A stretch of DNA of 39,961 bases, taken from contig VGCC01000017.1 of assembly GCA_016870195.1 (NCBI GenBank), forward strand, positions 1 to 39,961, read 5' to 3'. The DNA is from Actinomycetota bacterium (GTDB lineage Bacteria > Actinomycetota > Actinomycetes > S36-B12). Under the pieces are notes generated by a model. That model was not told the DNA's origin. It did no database searches and saw only the letters and a program-made list of their open reading frames with translations. Positions 3,788 through 30,101 of the stretch are shown here, in pieces. Both the position numbers and the translations under genes were made by a program. Within the stretch, counting starts at the first letter, position 1, and every line of letters begins with the position of its first letter.

Positions 3788-5125
3788 ATGATGACCGCGG
3801 ATGCCCTCTGGGAAGAACTGCAGTCGCGTTGGCCGGAATCGCAACTCGAGCCCTCGCTCGCGCGCATCGCATCCGTCGTCACATTGATGGGGGATCCGCA
3901 TCGGGTCTTCCCGGTGATCCAGGTCGCAGGCACCAACGGTAAGAGCTCGACCTCGCGCATGACCGAGTCGATCCTTCGTGCCTATGGCCTCCGCACGGGC
4001 CTGTTCACATCACCGCACCTCGTGCGGATCGGTGAGCGCATCTGTCTGGACGGGATCCCGGTCAGCGATGAACGCCTGGTCGCGACCTGGCAGGAGGCCG
4101 AGCCCTGCATCCGGGTGGTCGACGCGCAGTCGCAGGCCGATGGCGGTCCCCGCATGTCCTTCTTCGAGGTGCTGACCGCACTCGCTTTCGCCATCTTCGC
4201 CGACGCCCCGGTCGACGTCGCCGTGATCGAGGTCGGAATGGGGGGCACGTGGGACGCGACCAACGTGGTCGACGCGCAGGTGTGCATCGTCACACCCATT
4301 GGACTGGACCACATGGAGTATCTCGGCGAAACCATCGCGGCGATCGCGGGGGAGAAGGCGGGGATCGTCACGGGTGACGCGGACGTTGTTCTCGCCGAAC
4401 AACCGCGCGAAGCCGGAGAGGTGCTCCAGGAGCGGTGCGCGATGCTCGGGCTCACCCCACAACGCGAGGGAATCGAGTTCGCCGTCACGGATCGAGTGGT
4501 GGCGGTCGGGGGCCAGATGATCGGTGTGCGTGGCACACGCGGGGTCTACTCCGATCTCTTCCTTCCCCTGCTGGGTGATCACCAGTCGCACAACGCCGCG
4601 TGCGCGATCGCCGGGGTGGAATCCTTCCTGCACCAGCCCCTCGACATCGACCTGGTGCGTGATGGTCTGGCACAGGTGGTGGTCCCGGGACGGTTGCAGA
4701 TGGTCCGCCAGGGTCCCGCCGTCATCATCGATGCCGCCCACAACCCGCATGGCGCCGCAGCGTTGGCGTCATCCGTGCAGCAGTACTACGCGTTCGATTC
4801 GATCATCGCGGTGGTGGGAATGCTCCAAGGCAAGGATGCGCTGGGTTTCCTCGAGATCCTCATGCCGGTCATCGATGAGCTCGTTATAACGGCGCCGCAG
4901 TCACCACGCGCGATCGCTGCGGATGAGTTGGCCGCGATCGCCGAGTCGGTATCGGGCGTGCTTCCGATCAGCGTTGTGGCCTCTGTCCCAGACGCGATCG
5001 ATACTGCGATCGGGATTGCCGAGTCACGCCCGGGTGTGTCCGCGGTCATCATCGCCGGCTCCTTCGTGCTCGCCGGCGACGCCATGCGGGTTCTGGATGC
5101 GGCTCCGTGGCGGGACGCACCATGA
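3788..5125 (+). CDS. folC: Bifunctional folylpolyglutamate synthase/dihydrofolate synthase
   Basis: FolC is an ATP-dependent Mur-ligase-fold enzyme that adds glutamate to dihydropteroate and to folates. The 445-aa protein shows the P-loop VAGTNGKSSTSRM near residue 47 and the family motif TSPHLVRIGERI just after it. EVGMGGTWDATN lies near residue 150, and the C-terminal Mur-ligase domain contains IDAAHNPHGA. Two tandem ATGs (3788, 3791) start the frame; the promoter geometry favours the second. There is no Shine-Dalgarno sequence, consistent with a leaderless message. The stop overlaps the next gene's ATG (ATGA), so folC and the DUF4233 gene are translationally coupled, as in many actinobacteria. 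Function is confident from motifs and length. Confidence 0.95.
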   Translation: MMTADALWEELQSRWPESQLEPSLARIASVVTLMGDPHRVFPVIQVAGTNGKSSTSRMTESILRAYGLRTGLFTSPHLVRIGERICLDGIPVSDERLVATWQEAEPCIRVVDAQSQADGGPRMSFFEVLTALAFAIFADAPVDVAVIEVGMGGTWDATNVVDAQVCIVTPIGLDHMEYLGETIAAIAGEKAGIVTGDADVVLAEQPREAGEVLQERCAMLGLTPQREGIEFAVTDRVVAVGGQMIGVRGTRGVYSDLFLPLLGDHQSHNAACAIAGVESFLHQPLDIDLVRDGLAQVVVPGRLQMVRQGPAVIIDAAHNPHGAAALASSVQQYYAFDSIIAVVGMLQGKDALGFLEILMPVIDELVITAPQSPRAIAADELAAIAESVSGVLPISVVASVPDAIDTAIGIAESRPGVSAVIIAGSFVLAGDAMRVLDAAPWRDAP

Positions 5126-5445
5126 GGGTCCTCGGGTCCTCCGTTCTTGGCTTTGAGGCGATCGTCGTGCTCCTGGCGATGCCGCTCCTGGCCGTCAATG
5201 GCTACGTCGACTCGATGGGAGTTGCTTTCGCCATCGGTGGAGCGATCGCAATCGGTTTGATCCTGGGCATCGCGGTGATCACGCGGCCCTTCGGTGTGTG
5301 GTGGGGCTGGGCCATGCAGGTGGTCGTCCTCGCCCTCGGCTTCTGGATCCCGACGATGTGGATCCTCGGGGGCATGTTCGCGATCCTGTGGTTCGTCGCC
5401 GTGCGCATGGGCGGTCGCATCGACCGCGCACGTGCCGGTCAGTAG
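5122..5445 (+). CDS. DUF4233 small integral membrane protein
   Basis: A 107-aa hydrophobic protein with about four transmembrane segments: a pair separated by a short loop (NGYVDSMG), then a WWGWAMQ-containing segment and a final GGMFAILWFVAVRMGGR segment. It matches the actinobacterial DUF4233 family, which characteristically follows folC. The ATG at 5122 overlaps the folC TGA (ATGA); an earlier in-frame GTG at 5107 would lie inside folC and is less likely. No function is known for the family. Position suggests coupling to folate metabolism or just to the operon. Its TAG stop forms the first half of the -10 hexamer proposed for ndk. Confidence 0.85.
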   Translation: MRVLGSSVLGFEAIVVLLAMPLLAVNGYVDSMGVAFAIGGAIAIGLILGIAVITRPFGVWWGWAMQVVVLALGFWIPTMWILGGMFAILWFVAVRMGGRIDRARAGQ

Positions 5446-5448
5446 GCT
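5443..5448 (+). promoter_or_regulatory. Candidate -10 box for ndk
   Basis: TAGGCT, whose first three bases are the DUF4233 stop codon. A transcript starting about seven bases downstream would have a leader of roughly 43 bases that includes the ndk ribosome-binding site. Confidence 0.4.
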
Positions 5449-5497
5449 GCCGAACACATCACATGAAGAAGACATCGAGTGAGTGAGTGGAGTCAAC

Positions 5498-5908
5498 GTG
5501 TCCGAGCGAACCCTGGTCCTGATCAAGCCCGATGGCGTGGCGCGCGGCCTCGTCGGTGAGGTGCTCGCACGCATCGAGCGCAAGGGATTCCGCGTCGTCG
5601 CTCTGGAGATGCGCACGCTGACCCGCTCGATCGCGGAGACGCATTACGGCGAGCACGCGGGCAAGCCGTTCTTCGAGTCCTTGGTGTCTTTCATCACGGG
5701 TGGCCCGTTGGTGGCCGCCGTGATCGAGGGCCCGGATGCCATCGTCGCGTGGCGCACGATGATGGGTGCCACGAATCCCGTCAACGCAGCACCCGGAACG
5801 ATTCGCGGTGATCTCGCCACCGAGACGCAGAACAACGTGACTCACGGTTCGGATTCACCCGAGTCCGCTGCACGTGAGATCGCGCTGTTCTTCCCCGGCC
5901 TCGGGTGA
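5498..5908 (+). CDS. ndk: Nucleoside-diphosphate kinase
   Basis: Transfers the gamma phosphate of NTPs to NDPs through a phosphohistidine and balances NTP/dNTP pools in the cytoplasm. The 136-aa length is typical. The N-terminal [13 protein letters not shown] strand and the active-site region [12 protein letters not shown] (phosphorylated His) are intact. GTG at 5498 is preferred because GGAG lies five bases upstream and it gives the family N-terminus; an in-frame GTG at 5483 would add five residues and has no better site. The stop overlaps the start of the following hydrolase (GTGA), so the two are likely co-translated. Confidence 0.96.
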
Positions 5909-7173
5909 GGATCCGCGCACTCACCGCACTCGCGGCCGGCGCGCTCGTCGCCATCGCCGCACGTCGACCCACGCTCGTGCCGTGGCCACGTCCGGTGCGG
6001 ATCGCATTCCCGGCCGTACTCGCCGGCGCGTCGGCCGCAGTGGTGGCAGGTGCCCCCGACGCCCCCCGTCTCCTCCGCCCCCGACGCATGGCAGTTCTCG
6101 CGGGTGCCGGTGCCGGGCTGTGGTGGGGTGGACGCATCGTTCGAAGCCGACTCTTCGAGCGACTGACCGCGTCGAGTCGTGAACTCGATGTGGCGTTTCG
6201 CGAACCTCCCACGAGTCCGCATGTCAGTGGGTCATCCATGTCGCACGTGCCCCTGGCGTCGCTGGGCCGCGAGGGTGCCCGTTTCGTCCATACCCGCGCC
6301 CACGAGGATGCCATCCGGATCTTCATCGGCGCTGACTCGGCTGCTCGTCCCGAAGACCGGGTCGAACTCGCCATGGCGGAGCTGGCGCGCACCGGTGCAT
6401 TCGATCGCGGCACCCTCGTTGTGCAGGCGCCTGCAGGGACCGGGTACGCAAATCCCACCCCGATCGATGTCGTGGAATTGCGCACTGGTGGAGACTGCGC
6501 ATCGATCGTCGTGGGCTCGGGACTTCTTCCGAGCTTCCTGTCCCTCGGAACTGCGGAGCTCGCCGCACGAACGCAGCGTTATCTCCTCGAGCGGCTGAGT
6601 GCGCTTGGCGGGCATCCACGACTCCTTCTCTATGGTGAGAGTCTCGGGGCGCTCGTGCAGCAGATGGCGCTACCCGCAGGTACGACGGACCTCGACCGAT
6701 TCGGTATTCACACCGCGTTGTGGGTTGGCACTCCGGGAGGCGTGCGCGCGGATCGGTTCCGTTCCCGCTGTTCGTCCTACGTCAGCATCGATAGTCCTCG
6801 TGATATCCCGCATCCTCGTCCGCAGGAGCGGGTGTGGTTCCTTGAACACCATGGTGATCCGGTCGTGCGCTTCCGTCGGGAGTTGATCGGCACGCGTCCG
6901 GACTGGTTGTCGGGCCCACGTGGTCGCAATGTGCCGGAGGGCATGCGGTGGTCTCCGGGTATCACGTGGGCCCAGGTCCTTGTCGACACCGTCTACGCCA
7001 CCGATGTCACCCCGGGCGAGTTCGAGAGCATCGGCCACGATTATCGCGCCGATCTCGGCACGGTCGTGACCGCAGCATACGGATTCTCCGATGAGTCACC
7101 GTCGCCCGAGGAGCTCGAGGAGACGCTTCGGAGCCGCGAGCGTGACCGGGCCAGGGATGTGGGCGAGCTCTAG
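5905..7173 (+). CDS. Membrane-anchored alpha/beta hydrolase (Abhydrolase_9 type)
   Basis: A 422-aa protein. Residues 1-75 are hydrophobic and Ala/Arg-rich with probable membrane helices, as in the N-terminal domain paired with Abhydrolase_9. The rest is a predicted alpha/beta hydrolase with nucleophile elbow GESLG (Ser246) and conserved patches [11 protein letters not shown] and WVGTPGG. Late acidic and His residues ([15 protein letters not shown]) could complete the triad. The family is common in actinobacteria and mostly uncharacterised; lipid or cell-wall-related ester hydrolysis is only a guess. The GTG start overlaps the ndk stop. It precedes the mreB promoter, so it may be made with ndk rather than with the shape genes. 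Confidence 0.8.
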
Positions 7174-24764: not shown

Positions 24765-24839
<75 letters not shown>

Positions 24840-24921: not shown

Positions 24922-26523
24922 TCAGCCCGACGATGTAGACGGGGCGGGATGCTTAACGGACTCAACCGTCTCGTCGTCCGCGTGCTTATCCGCGCGACGC
25001 AAGAGGACGTAGCCCAGCAGACCGCCAAGGAGCATCAGCACGGCGGTGATGTACATCATCGTGGCAAAAGCACCGCCGTAGGACACGGTCGCGTCTGCCA
25101 GCGCCTCCTTACCCACGGATGTCGTGGGCGCAGTGCTCTGTGCGGCGTACGTCGTGACGGCGTCGAGGCCGGTGCCCACCTGAGTGGCGGGGACACCCGC
25201 AGCTTCTAGCTTGGCGACTGTGCCGCCGAGGGTGAGCTTGTCGATGACGATGGTGGAAGCCGCAAAGCCGATCGCGTAGAAGAATTGACCGAAGGTCAGA
25301 CGTGAGCTCGATACGGGACCGAAGTACTTTGCGGGGGCCTCCTTCAAGATGAGCGAGCCGTAGGGCACGGCGGCAATCACCACGCCTGCGCCCACGAGGA
25401 ACTCGCCGGGGAGGAAAGTCCAGAGGGACTTCCCGGTATGCGTAAGGGCCAGCAGAACCATGCCCACGGCGCTCACGACTCCGCCCAGGAGGAGCACTGC
25501 GCGCGCGGACAACTTGCCCGACGACATGAGGCGGCCGGTGACTAGGCCCGCAACGATGCCGGCCAAGAGCAGCGGCAACTGCCACATGGCAACCTGGAGG
25601 GTCTTCAGCCCGTTGACGTATTGCCAGAGGTTGGTCAGCTGCAGGAAGGCCACGGCATTGCCGAAGTTGTAGACGAAGCCCGCGACAATCGCTGCCAGGA
25701 ATATGGGGTTCTTCAGGATCTTCAGGGGGAAGAACCGCTTGTCGTCGCGCGACTCCCAGATCACCCAAACGATGAGAAGCGCGATCCCGACTCCAATACC
25801 GCCCAGGGCGATGGGGCTGGTCAGGCTCTTGCCGAGTTCGCTGATTCCGCCCAGGAGGCCGATGATGCCGAGCCCGAGCAGGACCTGACCGAGGATGTCC
25901 TTGCCAGGGAGCTTCAGTCGGGGTTCTTTGGGGAGCAGGATCGGCACGATGAAGAAGCTGATCGCACTCGCAATGGGGATGACGAGGAATGCCGTGCGCC
26001 ATTGAATGGATGACAGCGCGCCGCCGATGAAGGTGAGAATCATCGTCGACACCATGAGCACTGCGGTGAACATGCCCATGGCCGCGGCCAACTTGCCGGG
26101 CTTGGCTGCGGCGCGAATGTAGGCGAACGCCGCGCCGTAGACCGCGCCGAGACCGATACCGGCGATAACACGCCCTACGAGATAGACGGGCGTGTCTGGA
26201 GCAAGGAATACGACGAGGTCGCCGACGATCGTCACGACCAGGGCAACTTGCAGAACCTTGCGTCGGCCGAGGGAGTCTGCGAGCAGACCGGTCGAAATGG
26301 CCGTCGCCGCGAGGGCCAGTGTGGAAATGCTCGCCGCGAGTGACGTGCCCCCCATGTCCAGGCCGCGCGCCGCACCCACCAGCGCTGTCGAGGCGATATT
26401 GGGGTCTGTGCCCTGAAGCGCTCCGAGAATGCCGAGGAAGGCCAGGGCCAGGGCTGGTTTTTTGACCGGGTTCTGCGCTGGCGAGGCGGGGCTCGCGCCT
26501 GGCGTCGGTGCTGCAGCGGACAT
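24922..26523 (-). CDS. MFS transporter, DHA2-like 14-TM family
   Basis: A 533-aa polytopic membrane protein. The N-terminus is Ala/Pro-rich (SAAAPTPGASPASPA), then the first helix FLGILGALQGTDPNIASTAL leads into the family motif A-like GLLADSLGRRKV (~85). About 14 hydrophobic segments follow, with an extracellular loop near residues 440-490. The polar C-tail is cytoplasmic. Substrate is unknown. ATG at 26523 has AGAGG five bases upstream; the longer open frame overlaps the operator region and is rejected. It diverges from the Ntn hydrolase over 143 bp holding a perfect inverted repeat, so the two are likely co-regulated. It may import the substrate or export the product of the adjacent hydrolases. 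Confidence 0.88.
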   Translation of the reverse strand: MSAAAPTPGASPASPAQNPVKKPALALAFLGILGALQGTDPNIASTALVGAARGLDMGGTSLAASISTLALAATAISTGLLADSLGRRKVLQVALVVTIVGDLVVFLAPDTPVYLVGRVIAGIGLGAVYGAAFAYIRAAAKPGKLAAAMGMFTAVLMVSTMILTFIGGALSSIQWRTAFLVIPIASAISFFIVPILLPKEPRLKLPGKDILGQVLLGLGIIGLLGGISELGKSLTSPIALGGIGVGIALLIVWVIWESRDDKRFFPLKILKNPIFLAAIVAGFVYNFGNAVAFLQLTNLWQYVNGLKTLQVAMWQLPLLLAGIVAGLVTGRLMSSGKLSARAVLLLGGVVSAVGMVLLALTHTGKSLWTFLPGEFLVGAGVVIAAVPYGSLILKEAPAKYFGPVSSSRLTFGQFFYAIGFAASTIVIDKLTLGGTVAKLEAAGVPATQVGTGLDAVTTYAAQSTAPTTSVGKEALADATVSYGGAFATMMYITAVLMLLGGLLGYVLLRRADKHADDETVESVKHPAPSTSSG

Positions 26524-26572
26524 GGGAACCTCTCGTCTAGGAGTGCGCTGATGCTGGGGGCTGATGAAGCGC

Positions 26573-26595
26573 AATACCGGGAGATTTCCGGTATT
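26573..26595. promoter_or_regulatory. Inverted repeat, candidate operator
   Basis: AATACCGG-N7-CCGGTATT, a perfect 8-bp inverted repeat, lies about 50 bases upstream of the MFS start and about 70 upstream of the Ntn-hydrolase start. The size and symmetry fit a dimeric repressor of the TetR or GntR kind. No regulator gene is present beside it. Confidence 0.55.
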
Positions 26596-26666
26596 CGGCA
26601 ATTGACCGCGTTGGCATCCGGGCGCCCATTAGCCTTGGCCGACATTCGTGTCTGAGGAGGCTACCC

Positions 26667-27665
26667 ATGTGCACCAATTTCAAGTATCCGACGGCGAAGG
26701 ACGGCACCTCCTGTGTCGGCCGCACCATGGAGTTTCCCAACGAGATTCCCTGGCAGATCGGCGTAGCCGCCAGTGACTTGAAGGGGGAGTGCACGCTCGT
26801 CCCCAACGGGAAGACCTGGCAGGCGAAGTACGGCGTTGTCGGCATGTCGGCCTTCAACAATCCGCAGTGGTACGCGGATGGGATGAATAACGTGGGCCTC
26901 TCCGCACACCTGCTCTACATGCCCGACCATTCGACGTACTACCCCCCGAAGGGCGACGGTTCCGACGTCGGGATCCTCGACCTCATCGCCTTCGTGCTTG
27001 GTACCTGCTCGACGGTTGTCGAGGCCAAGGCGGCCGCAATGTCCGTCAATGTTGTCAACGTCGAGCCCAAGCAAATCCCGGTACCCCTGCCGTGTCACCT
27101 CGTCCTTCACGACAAGGACTCGTGCGCGGTCGTGGAATTCCATCCGGAGGGTCCGGTGGCGACCGACAATCCGGTCCAGGTTGCGACCAACTCCCCGTAC
27201 ATCGAATGGCACCTGACGAACGTGTGCAACTACCTGAGTCTTAGCCCGGACAACCCGGCCGCCATCACGATCGGTGGAACGCAGTTCGCCCCCTTTGCAC
27301 AGGGTCAGGGCTTCCGGGGCATCCCGGGCGACGGTACTTCCCCCTCGCGTTTCATCCGCGCACTCACCGACGTGCGTTTCGCGCCGGCGCCCGCAAACCA
27401 GCAGGATGCTGAACTCCAGACCATCCGGGAGTTGCACGGCTTCGACATCGCAACGGGAAGCATCATGGAGCCCGCGATTCAAGGGGGCCTAACGCCCGAG
27501 CTCACCATCTGGTCGACGGTGTCCAACCTGACCGGCAATCGCTATCTCTACAACACCTACGACGATCCGCAGTGGTTCGTAATCAATGTTGCGACGACGG
27601 ACTTCAGCACATCGCGATCGGTTGCCTTTACGCACTCGGGCGGCCCGGTTCCCCTCACCGTCTGA
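26667..27665 (+). CDS. Linear amide C-N hydrolase, choloylglycine hydrolase family
   Basis: A 332-aa Ntn hydrolase. Removal of Met1 exposes Cys2, the nucleophile. Residues in register with bile-salt hydrolase are Asn175 (ATNSPY) and Arg228 (GTSPSRF); Arg19 in GRTMEF matches Arg18. The family's Asp21 is replaced by Glu22. Members cleave amide bonds in bile salts, penicillin V, N-acyl homoserine lactones and related acyl amides. There is no signal peptide, so it acts in the cytoplasm. ATG at 26667 follows GAGGAGG. It is 27 bases upstream of the amidohydrolase and diverges from an MFS transporter, suggesting uptake or export coupled to amide hydrolysis. The substrate cannot be told from sequence. 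Confidence 0.9.
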   Translation: MCTNFKYPTAKDGTSCVGRTMEFPNEIPWQIGVAASDLKGECTLVPNGKTWQAKYGVVGMSAFNNPQWYADGMNNVGLSAHLLYMPDHSTYYPPKGDGSDVGILDLIAFVLGTCSTVVEAKAAAMSVNVVNVEPKQIPVPLPCHLVLHDKDSCAVVEFHPEGPVATDNPVQVATNSPYIEWHLTNVCNYLSLSPDNPAAITIGGTQFAPFAQGQGFRGIPGDGTSPSRFIRALTDVRFAPAPANQQDAELQTIRELHGFDIATGSIMEPAIQGGLTPELTIWSTVSNLTGNRYLYNTYDDPQWFVINVATTDFSTSRSVAFTHSGGPVPLTV

Positions 27666-27692
27666 AGCCAAACCGTCCGAACGGAGCCCCTC

Positions 27693-29416
27693 ATGCCGAC
27701 CACGATCCTCAAGGCCGCGTCGATTGTCACGATGGATGTTGCCAATCCGCGAGCCGAGGCAGTCGCCTTCGACGACGCGACCGGCAAGATCCTCGCCGTC
27801 GGAACGGTTGCCGAATGCCAGTCGGCGGCGCCCGGTACCGCGGTGACCGATCTCGGTACAACAGTTCTTATGCCCGGCTTCATCGAGGCCCATAGCCACC
27901 CGATGCTTGGCGGAATGATCACGCAGACGCCGTCGTACTGGATCGCCCCCTACATGGGCTATCCACATATCAGTGATGTTCACGCACTGTGGACGAAGGT
28001 CAACGCCGAACCCCCCCCGATCAGCCCGTCGTATTCCAGGGCCTTGATCGCCTGCTCCAACAGGCTTCGATGCCGACCAACACAGATCTCGATGCCTTCT
28101 TCCCGACCCGTCGCGCTGTCGTGCTCGACAACTCTGGGCACGTGGCCTACTTCAACTCCGCGGTCATCGCCTTCAACAAATGGGCAGGCGGTAAGCCCCC
28201 GCCCAATCCGCCGGGTGCGCACTTCGGCCGCAATCCCGACGGAACGTCCAACGGCATCGCCTACGAGACCGCTGCCCAACTCGAGGCCGTACTGCCGACT
28301 GTGAAGGACGCGGTTCCCCATCCCCTGGAGTCTGCGGCGCGGTGGCTGCAGTACATGGCGGGCTTCGGTATCACCGCGACCTCGGAAATGACCTACTCCA
28401 CCAACATGCTCAAGGGTTATGAAGCGCTTACCACCCGCCCGGATTCCCCCGTGCGCATGTCGCTGTATCACATGGCGATCGACTCCGACGCCGGTGTGCA
28501 AGTCGAGTCGCCCGACCCCGCGATGCTGCGCAAGCAGGGCGTGAAGTTGTGGGCCGACGGATCTCCCTGGGTCGGATCGATAGCGTCGTCGTTTGCCTAC
28601 CTTGACACTCCCGCAGTGCAGAAGGCCGAAATCCCGCTGGGTCCCGGTGGTACGACGATGATGAATTACACCCGCGTGGAACTCGATGCTCTGCTGGCGA
28701 AGTACGCCCCCATGGGTTGGCAGATGTCCTTCCACGTCAACGGCGACGTGGGCCTCGACATCGTCCTCGATGCATATGAAGAAGCCCTGGTGAACAACAA
28801 CCTCATGGGCACCGACCACCGCTGGCGCGTGGAGCACTGCGGTGGATGCCGCGGCGACCAATTCGAGCGCGCGGTGTCCATGGGCGTGACGATCTCTCTC
28901 GGCCCCTTCCAGTACATCTATTGGGTAGACCTCCTCGATGGCACGATGTTTCCCCCCGAGATCGGCTCCCAGTGGATGCGCTGGGGCGACGCGGTACGCG
29001 CCGGGGCTCACCTTTCGTTCCACAATGACGGACCTGTGAGTCCGCCTATCCCATTGCTCAATATTCAGACTGCCATCACGCGCACGACAGACACCGGCCA
29101 GGTGCACGGCGCGAATCAGATCATCAGCATCGAGGATGCCCTCAAGGCAGAGACCATCGGTGCGGCATACATGCTGCATCGTGATGATGAGATCGGCTCA
29201 CTTGCCGTGGGCAAGTTCACCGATCTTGTCGAGCTCTCGATGGATCCATACCTGGCGGAGCCTCTCAAGCTTGCTTCACAGGTGAAGGTGCAGGGCACAT
29301 GGCGATCTGGACGCAAGATCGACCTTGATGCCTACATGCAGCAGATCCAGGCGGTGGAAGCCGCGGGCACCCACCCGGTAGATCACGCGACCCCGATCCA
29401 AGCCCACAAGTGCTGA
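27693..29416 (+). pseudogene. Amidohydrolase family 3 (YtcJ-like) gene with a frameshift at a C8 run
   Basis: Two overlapping frames together make one metal-dependent amidohydrolase of about 574 residues. The first frame (from ATG 27693, GGAG upstream) gives the N-terminal beta-sandwich and the metal-binding MPGFIEAHSHP. It loses homology at the run of eight C at 28011-28018. The second frame resumes directly with DQPVVFQGLDRLL and continues through VVLDNSGHVAYFNS, SFHVNGDVGLDIV, WRVEHCGG and the metal-ligand SFHNDGPVSPP. It ends at a TGA at 29414-29416. Nine C, or six, would restore one frame. Possible explanations are sequencing error, a decayed gene, phase variation or slippage. The family cleaves cyclic or acyl amides; the substrate is unknown. 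It is probably co-transcribed with the Ntn hydrolase. Confidence 0.8.
28011..28018 (+). repeat. Homopolymer C8 at the frameshift
   Basis: Eight consecutive C between the codon for Glu (GAA) and GATCAG. It is the exact point where the amidohydrolase changes frame. Confidence 0.85.
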
Positions 29417-30101
29417 TAGGCGCACCCGGCATCCCCTCGATACCGGCCACGTTTCGGATGGAGCCGAGCACGCGACCGGACGAGGTGTTCATGAAGATGA
29501 GGCCCGCTTCATCGCAGGAAATGAGGAGGGTGGAGCTGTCCGGCGTGACGGCGAGACCCACCGGCTGGTTGTTCTTGCACGACTTCAGGGGGTAGCGGCC
29601 CTAGACCTTGGCCGAGGTGAGGTCGACCTTGGCGATATAGCCCTTGTCGATGACGTAGACGAATGCCGCGGATCCTTTGGGTCCGATCACCACGGCATCG
29701 GCCTGGCCTCCCACGGGCACCTTCTTCACGAGGGCCCCGCTACGTGCGTTGGTGATGCGCACGGCCTACTCCTGCCAACTGCTCGTAACAACCCGGGTGC
29801 CGTCGGGGGTGATGGCGAGTCCCATGGGAGTGGGTCCGATTGGCACCGTGCGCGTGACTGCGGGCGTTGTGGCGTCCACGATCGCCAGGGTTCCCGGGCC
29901 GCGACCCGTCAGCGCGCTTGAGGCCACAACCACGGTGGAGCCTGCCGACGCTGCGAGGTTTGGAGAATCGGGCAGTGCCACGTTTGCCGACGCGGCTGCC
30001 AATGGAGGGGCGGGATCGGCATACGCCGCGGGTGCGAGCGAGAGCCCGACCGTGCAGAGGGATGCTGCAACCAGTGAAGCCCCTATTCCCGATCTATTCA
30101 C
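29417..30101 (-). pseudogene. Secreted YVTN-type beta-propeller relic with two in-frame TAG codons
   Basis: The frame begins GTG at 30101 with a Sec signal peptide (about 28 residues ending PAAYA before DPAPP). Beta-propeller repeats follow: TPMGLAITPDGTRVVTSSW, then TAG at 29766-29768. The same frame continues VKKVPVGGQADAVVIGPKGS, then a second TAG at 29601-29603, then VGLAVTPDSSTLLISCDEAG. Homology runs on through both stops, so it was one gene. It ends abruptly at the end of the amidohydrolase, after only about 230 codons against the usual 320-400. It overlaps the K+ channel stop by eight bases with GGGAG upstream, so it was translationally coupled to the channel. The first 111 residues may still be made and secreted. 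Confidence 0.75.

Follow-up and report, generated by a model that had tools for sequence, protein, structure and literature searches.

Organization of the module

The window analysed here is the whole of contig VGCC01000017.1 (39,961 nucleotides; assembly GCA_016870195.1 of an Actinomycetota bacterium), which is contig 17 of a 2.13-Mb genome in 87 contigs with completeness 99.21 and contamination 2.42. Positions 24922-29416 contain a three-gene module in which a gene for a major facilitator superfamily (MFS) transporter diverges from genes for two different amide hydrolases. The transporter gene (24922-26523, minus strand) encodes 533 residues matching PF07690 (113.5 bits, cut-off 33.4); its start codon is more likely ATG 26523, from which the homologues align, than TTG 26601. 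The plus strand carries the gene for a choloylglycine-hydrolase-family N-terminal nucleophile (Ntn) amidase of 332 residues (CBAH; 26667-27665; PF02275, 157 bits, cut-off 20.4) and, starting 27 bp past its stop codon, the gene for a YtcJ-like binuclear metallohydrolase of the Amidohydro_3 family PF07969 (AH; 27693-29416), which is split by a frameshift in this assembly. The match to PF07969 (163 bits, cut-off 29.7) falls on the part of the gene that follows the break. The Pfam profiles thus bear out the first-pass annotation, which had described a transporter diverging from two unlike amide-cleaving enzymes. The start codons at 26523 and 26667 are separated by a 143-bp control region (26524-26666) in which no sigma-70-like promoter or terminator pattern was found. 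Its similarity to the corresponding region of relatives is mostly confined to the flanking coding ends and the ribosome-binding sites.

Recurrence across the order

Co-occurrence was examined in an order-level sample of 166 genomes, each a species of the window's freshwater actinobacterial order, with a limited number of candidates scored per genome. The relatives are fragmented metagenome-assembled genomes (MAGs), in which the absence of a partner near a contig end is ambiguous; most are labelled Actinomycetota, Actinomycetales or Micrococcales, and several are aquatic according to their isolate names. A scan with the Ntn protein gave 13 loci, eight of which contain all three genes. The transporter diverges from CBAH-AH in L002, L003, L005 and L014, as it does in the window, while all three genes read in one direction, in the order MFS-CBAH-AH, in L007, L008, L009 and L010. 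The transporter orthologues beside the same genes are 87-77% identical. Co-occurrence elsewhere, on which the first-pass annotation had made its proposal depend, is therefore found, and in several arrangements; that annotation did not recognize the combination as a described system, and no description of it was found in the literature searched. None of the genes flanking the module in the window accompanies it in L002-L014 and two relatives' copies adjoin dnaK-grpE, from which it follows that the module is kept together while its site changes. The genes dnaK, grpE, dnaJ and clpB recur as neighbours, but they are housekeeping genes of the site and were discarded as a clue to the pathway. A Mutator-family (PF00872) transposase gene has inserted into the control region between the transporter and CBAH genes of one relative (L014/L116, 6353-7600). 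Upstream of the co-directional module in L007 (5764-6294), and likewise in L112, L113 and L215, a conserved 177-residue protein is encoded that begins with a signal-like sequence and matches no Pfam family.

The least biased test of co-occurrence is a search of the 166 genomes with the transporter alone (E ≤ 1e-80). Among its 39 matches, 28 adjoin AH and/or CBAH (one of them across an inserted transposase), with both enzymes present at nine loci, AH only at 12 and CBAH only at seven. With about six AH or CBAH genes in roughly 2,100, well under 1% of random genes would have such a neighbour; this figure is an estimate and not a computed background. The association of the transporter with hydrolase genes is far beyond chance. 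Where AH and the transporter occur without CBAH, most pairs read in one direction and are operon-like, with -56 to 95 bp between the two genes; the pair at L110 is divergent. At another locus (L199, G124:C343, 3531-4871) a transporter of the same family lies beside an Ntn hydrolase of the C69/AAT type, a third type of amidase.

Trees of the three families were built quickly, with support from SH-aLRT (the Shimodaira-Hasegawa-like approximate likelihood-ratio test) only. Among the loci that have a partner, the transporter tree requires eight or more changes of partner type; L116 is scored in this count as CBAH only, since with the inserted transposase its AH lies too far away to be counted. L007 and L009 have CBAHs of a single supported clade but AHs of different well supported clades, so that at least one CBAH/AH combination must have been assembled anew. 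The window genome has a second transporter of the same family (53% identity; L197, G000:C1:180000-191500, at 4885-6432), which stands alone without a hydrolase between genes that we take, from the N-termini of their proteins, to be rplM and truA. At this site the genome G021 (L101) has an AH-transporter pair, and a hydrolase has probably been lost beside the second transporter of the window genome.

In a class-level sample of 395 genomes, homologues of AH with 48-52% identity occur in eight genomes outside the order. Neither CBAH nor this transporter was found beside them in the loci examined in that sample, which indicates that AH does not require these partners. No homologue of the transporter outside the order was reported at E ≤ 1e-60 among the best three candidates per genome.

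At the level of gene content, these comparisons establish a distinct MFS subfamily that is genetically tied to CBAH, AH or both, the genes being kept together across rearranged sites. They also tie the transporter to the hydrolases functionally and show that one hydrolase can take the place of another as its partner.

The Ntn hydrolase

CBAH matches PF02275 over residues 2-315. All 21 homologues aligned (alignment A1) begin with Met-Cys, the nucleophile being Cys2. The catalytic set of the bile salt hydrolase (BSH) and penicillin V acylase (PVA) family is Cys2, Arg18, Asp21, Asn175 and Arg228 (PMC8066178). Four of these five positions match in the window protein, which has Cys2, Arg19, Asn175 and Arg228; at the fifth, Asp21 is replaced by Glu22, and glutamate is found here in 19 of the 21 homologues. 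The substitution extends over the whole clade, comprising alignment A1 together with L145, L146, L031, L033, L038 and L118, of which L145 and L146 lie outside the order. Classical BSHs sampled across the phylum have aspartate at this position.

The residue at position 81 is asparagine in BSHs and aromatic in PVAs (PMC8066178). The window protein has Tyr84 here, as do all 21 homologues (tyrosine in 21/21), and its Met21 corresponds to the PVA-type Met20. Scores against the NCBIfam equivalogs for BSH (153.3 bits, cut-off 350) and penicillin V amidase (137.8 bits, cut-off 600) are both below cut-off. An AlphaFold model (predicted local distance difference test score, pLDDT, 82.6) has 2iwm and 2z71 as its best Foldseek matches, and PVAs take the top rows in VIA-align (Z 36.0-36.4), although the best BSH follows at 34.8, a small difference. 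PVAs (3PVA/2IWM from Bacillus sphaericus and 2OQC from B. subtilis) share the full-length Ntn fold with CBAH (VIA Z 36, 2.5-2.7 Å over 310-321 residues), as well as Cys2, the arginine, Asn175, Arg228 and the aromatic residue at the position of BSH Asn81. They differ from it in having aspartate for glutamate at position 21, in an overall identity of just 22-24% and in that CBAH has a transporter and a metallohydrolase as genetic partners. BSHs belong to the same fold and family (PF02275; VIA Z 33-35) but differ at both Asn81 and Asp21, and identity of CBAH as a BSH was rejected on these two residues. Bile salts, which the first-pass annotation had listed among the substrates of the family, are accordingly disfavoured for CBAH by the tyrosine. 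CBAH is a family member by its profile, its signature is acylase-like and not bile-salt-like, and its catalytic set is variant; it should be filed neither as a BSH nor as a PVA.

The metallohydrolase and its frameshift

The predicted metal ligands of AH form the set HxH, K, H, H, D and are invariant in an alignment of 22 sequences (A3); they were tested on intact relatives and are numbered as in the L005 protein (His67, His69, Lys285, His348, His382 and Asp446). The model of AH (pLDDT 90.3) is nearest to the solved folds 3IGH and 3ICJ, both without assigned function, and AH has no solved relative with a known substrate above about 21% identity. 3ICJ is also one of the closest structural homologues of a metal-dependent BSH from Bilophila, a 101-kDa protein that provides an example of a true bile salt hydrolase within PF07969 (PMC13081902). 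YtcJ-like Amidohydro_3 enzymes, which include this metalloBSH and N-substituted formamide deformylase, share with AH a TIM barrel, the HxH motif, a carboxylatable lysine, two histidines and an aspartate. The Ser-x-His and His-x-Asn motifs of the metalloBSH are spaced as in AH, whose conserved Ser148-x-His150 and Asn350 match the positions of its Ser194-x-His196 and Asn443, as judged by motif spacing only. By the same spacing, and not by alignment with BwBSH1, a tryptophan eight residues after the lysine of AH takes the position of Gln381, which contacts the sulfonate in the metalloBSH. AH (574 residues) has neither the C-terminal domain nor the export signal of the metalloBSH and is not assigned to that group.

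In this assembly AH is not one open frame, a point that the first-pass annotation overlooked. The frame from 27693 codes for the N-terminal part with the first HxH metal motif, and at GAACCCCCCCCGATCAG it departs from the protein family. The break lies at a C8 homopolymer (28012-28019, plus strand), located by DNA comparison with nine relatives, and the family match resumes in the frame of the open reading frame 27989-29416. The C/G run of the window is one base shorter than in the relatives; L003, for example, reads GAGCTCCCCCCGGATCAG. All nine relatives checked (L002, L003, L005, L007, L008, L009, L010, L013 and L014) are in frame at this site, the intact protein of relatives having 574 residues. 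A programmed frameshift is thereby ruled out, since the break is not a conserved signal.

Ratios of nonsynonymous to synonymous substitution (dN/dS) were obtained by Nei-Gojobori counts, for AH and CBAH against L002, L003 and L005 and for the transporter against L002 and L003. They are 0.025-0.07 for both halves of AH, 0.05-0.10 for CBAH and 0.08-0.12 for the transporter gene. The low values on both halves of AH, a sign of strong selection, imply that the break, if not an error of sequencing or assembly in the homopolymer, is a mutation of very recent date. Comparison of the coding sequences thus places the module genes under purifying selection, and they are often lost.

The transporter

The best profile for the transporter is TIGR00711 (DHA2/EmrB), which it matches over residues 69-460 with 77.6 bits, about a third of the cut-off of 230.2. 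Motif C with its Gly-Pro (GP) pair is typical of drug/proton antiporters. The GP pair is absent from all 38 aligned members of the family. The module transporter also differs from the DHA2/EmrB type in being encoded with amide hydrolases. The missing GP weakly favours uptake.

Surroundings of the module

A gene for tRNA-Ala(GGC) (24765-24839, plus strand; ARAGORN) lies outside the module, next to the transporter gene. The first-pass annotation was right about its position, but the neighbour has no bearing on the module and is incidental to it: no tRNA lies beside the module in any of 12 related loci examined. An integration site at the tRNA was rejected, as the window contains no second copy of its 3' end and the relatives' loci have no adjoining tRNA. 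A plasmid origin was also discarded, plasmid homologues all being below 60% identity and about 33% at best. The three module proteins gave no match to the PADLOC anti-phage defence models, absence from that library not amounting to proof. Downstream, at 29418-30101 on the minus strand, is a degenerate, probably secreted beta-propeller-like frame with two in-frame TAG codons, which ends at the 3' end of AH; relatives hold only 24-32% homologues of it. This frame may be a gene truncated on arrival of the module.

Proposed function

We regard it as an even chance that the module is an accessory unit, often lost, for the transport and cytosolic hydrolysis of N-acyl-amide compounds, and uptake and salvage is probably its role. 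The transporter would import an amide substrate into the cytosol. CBAH would then cleave amide bonds by attack of Cys2, formation of an acyl-enzyme and release by water, and AH would cleave amide bonds of the same substrate class through metal-activated water, the products being carboxylic acids and amines that could support growth. No N-terminal hydrophobic export signal is seen in CBAH or AH and hydrolysis is therefore probably cytosolic. The occurrence of the transporter with any one of several amide hydrolases is most simply accounted for if it carries the amide substrate. The first-pass annotation had proposed hydrolysis by the Ntn enzyme and then by the metal enzyme. Since either can be the sole partner of the transporter, as the loci with AH only and with CBAH only indicate, parallel or overlapping action is more likely than an obligatory succession, and Ntn-then-metal order where both are present is possible but not required.

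Several observations weigh against this proposal. Eleven of the 39 transporter homologues have neither AH nor CBAH as a partner, and the adjacency counts themselves rest on fragmented MAGs. The nearest profile of the transporter is that of a drug-efflux family, TIGR00711, and EfpA, a solved homologue, also has no GP in motif C, hence its loss hints at uptake only weakly. The catalytic Asp21 is glutamate in this CBAH clade, so that activity cannot be assumed. The AH gene of the window genome is itself frameshifted, AH of L002 carries an in-frame TAG in place of the glutamate of its relatives, and the copy in another genome (L115, G114:C18) has decayed, with a split CBAH gene and a transporter remnant of 110 residues.

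The last three of these observations, together with solo CBAHs in L004 and L012/L215 and the degenerate neighbour at 29418-30101, point to an alternative which is compatible with the functional readings and which we consider possible, if doubtful: that the module of the window is a decaying remnant, with AH a pseudogene and only transport and Ntn hydrolysis, or nothing, left. However, the low dN/dS of both AH halves against three relatives means that any inactivation is very recent, and homopolymer indels are common as sequencing and assembly errors. With AH frameshifted, the unit could be no more than partly functional in the window genome.

Detoxification or resistance, in which the transporter would act in efflux and the hydrolases would inactivate an amide antibiotic (for example of penicillin or peptide type) in the cytosol, is unlikely. 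The DHA2 drug-efflux profile is the best for the transporter, though below cut-off, and CBAH has the tyrosine and methionine of PVAs, which are its best structural matches. Against this, the GP of motif C is missing throughout the transporter family, neither a TetR-like nor a MarR-like regulator was recognized next to the module in the window, and β-lactams act outside the cytosol while both hydrolases are without export signals.

Quenching or recycling of acyl-homoserine lactones (AHLs) or other N-acyl amino signals, by uptake and then acylase cleavage, appears less probable still. PVA-type enzymes of the CBAH family do hydrolyse AHLs, and CBAH carries the PVA-type residue, but the AHL-active choloylglycine-family PVAs cited come from Gram-negative bacteria (PMC8066178). 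The metalloenzyme would have no evident role. It is also general knowledge that long-chain AHLs need no dedicated importer.

That an Ntn enzyme and a metal-dependent enzyme have converged on the cleavage of conjugated bile salts or N-acyl taurines is very improbable, for although PF07969 includes a true BSH in the Bilophila enzyme and AH conserves its Ser-x-His and Asn residues, CBAH has tyrosine at the BSH Asn81 position, AH has tryptophan at the Gln381 position and is without the C-terminal domain and export of the metalloBSH, taurine catabolism via Xsc was rejected for the window genome because only sub-cut-off homologues were found (best 289 of 676 bits), and free-living lake bacteria are generally known to meet little bile.

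Salvage by uptake thus being the preferred reading, we put forward, as a tentative extension of it, that a dedicated transporter family whose partner is repeatedly swapped among three amidase types with no more than distant relationship, namely AH, the Glu-for-Asp21 CBAH and the C69/AAT-type Ntn hydrolase, could represent an order-specific pathway for abundant, unrecognized freshwater N-acyl amides, in which the two main enzymes would act in parallel, as do the Ntn and metallo bile salt hydrolases. In the Asp-to-Glu clade, a catalytic residue that has been described as conserved throughout the BSH/PVA family departs from the rule, an exception that can be put to the test. If the proposal is true, the module would be a natural case of two unrelated amidase classes serving one transported substrate class, following soon on the metal-dependent bile salt hydrolases in the same metalloenzyme family (PMC13081902), and the transporter would be a sequence handle for the amide compounds taken up by uncultured lake actinobacteria.

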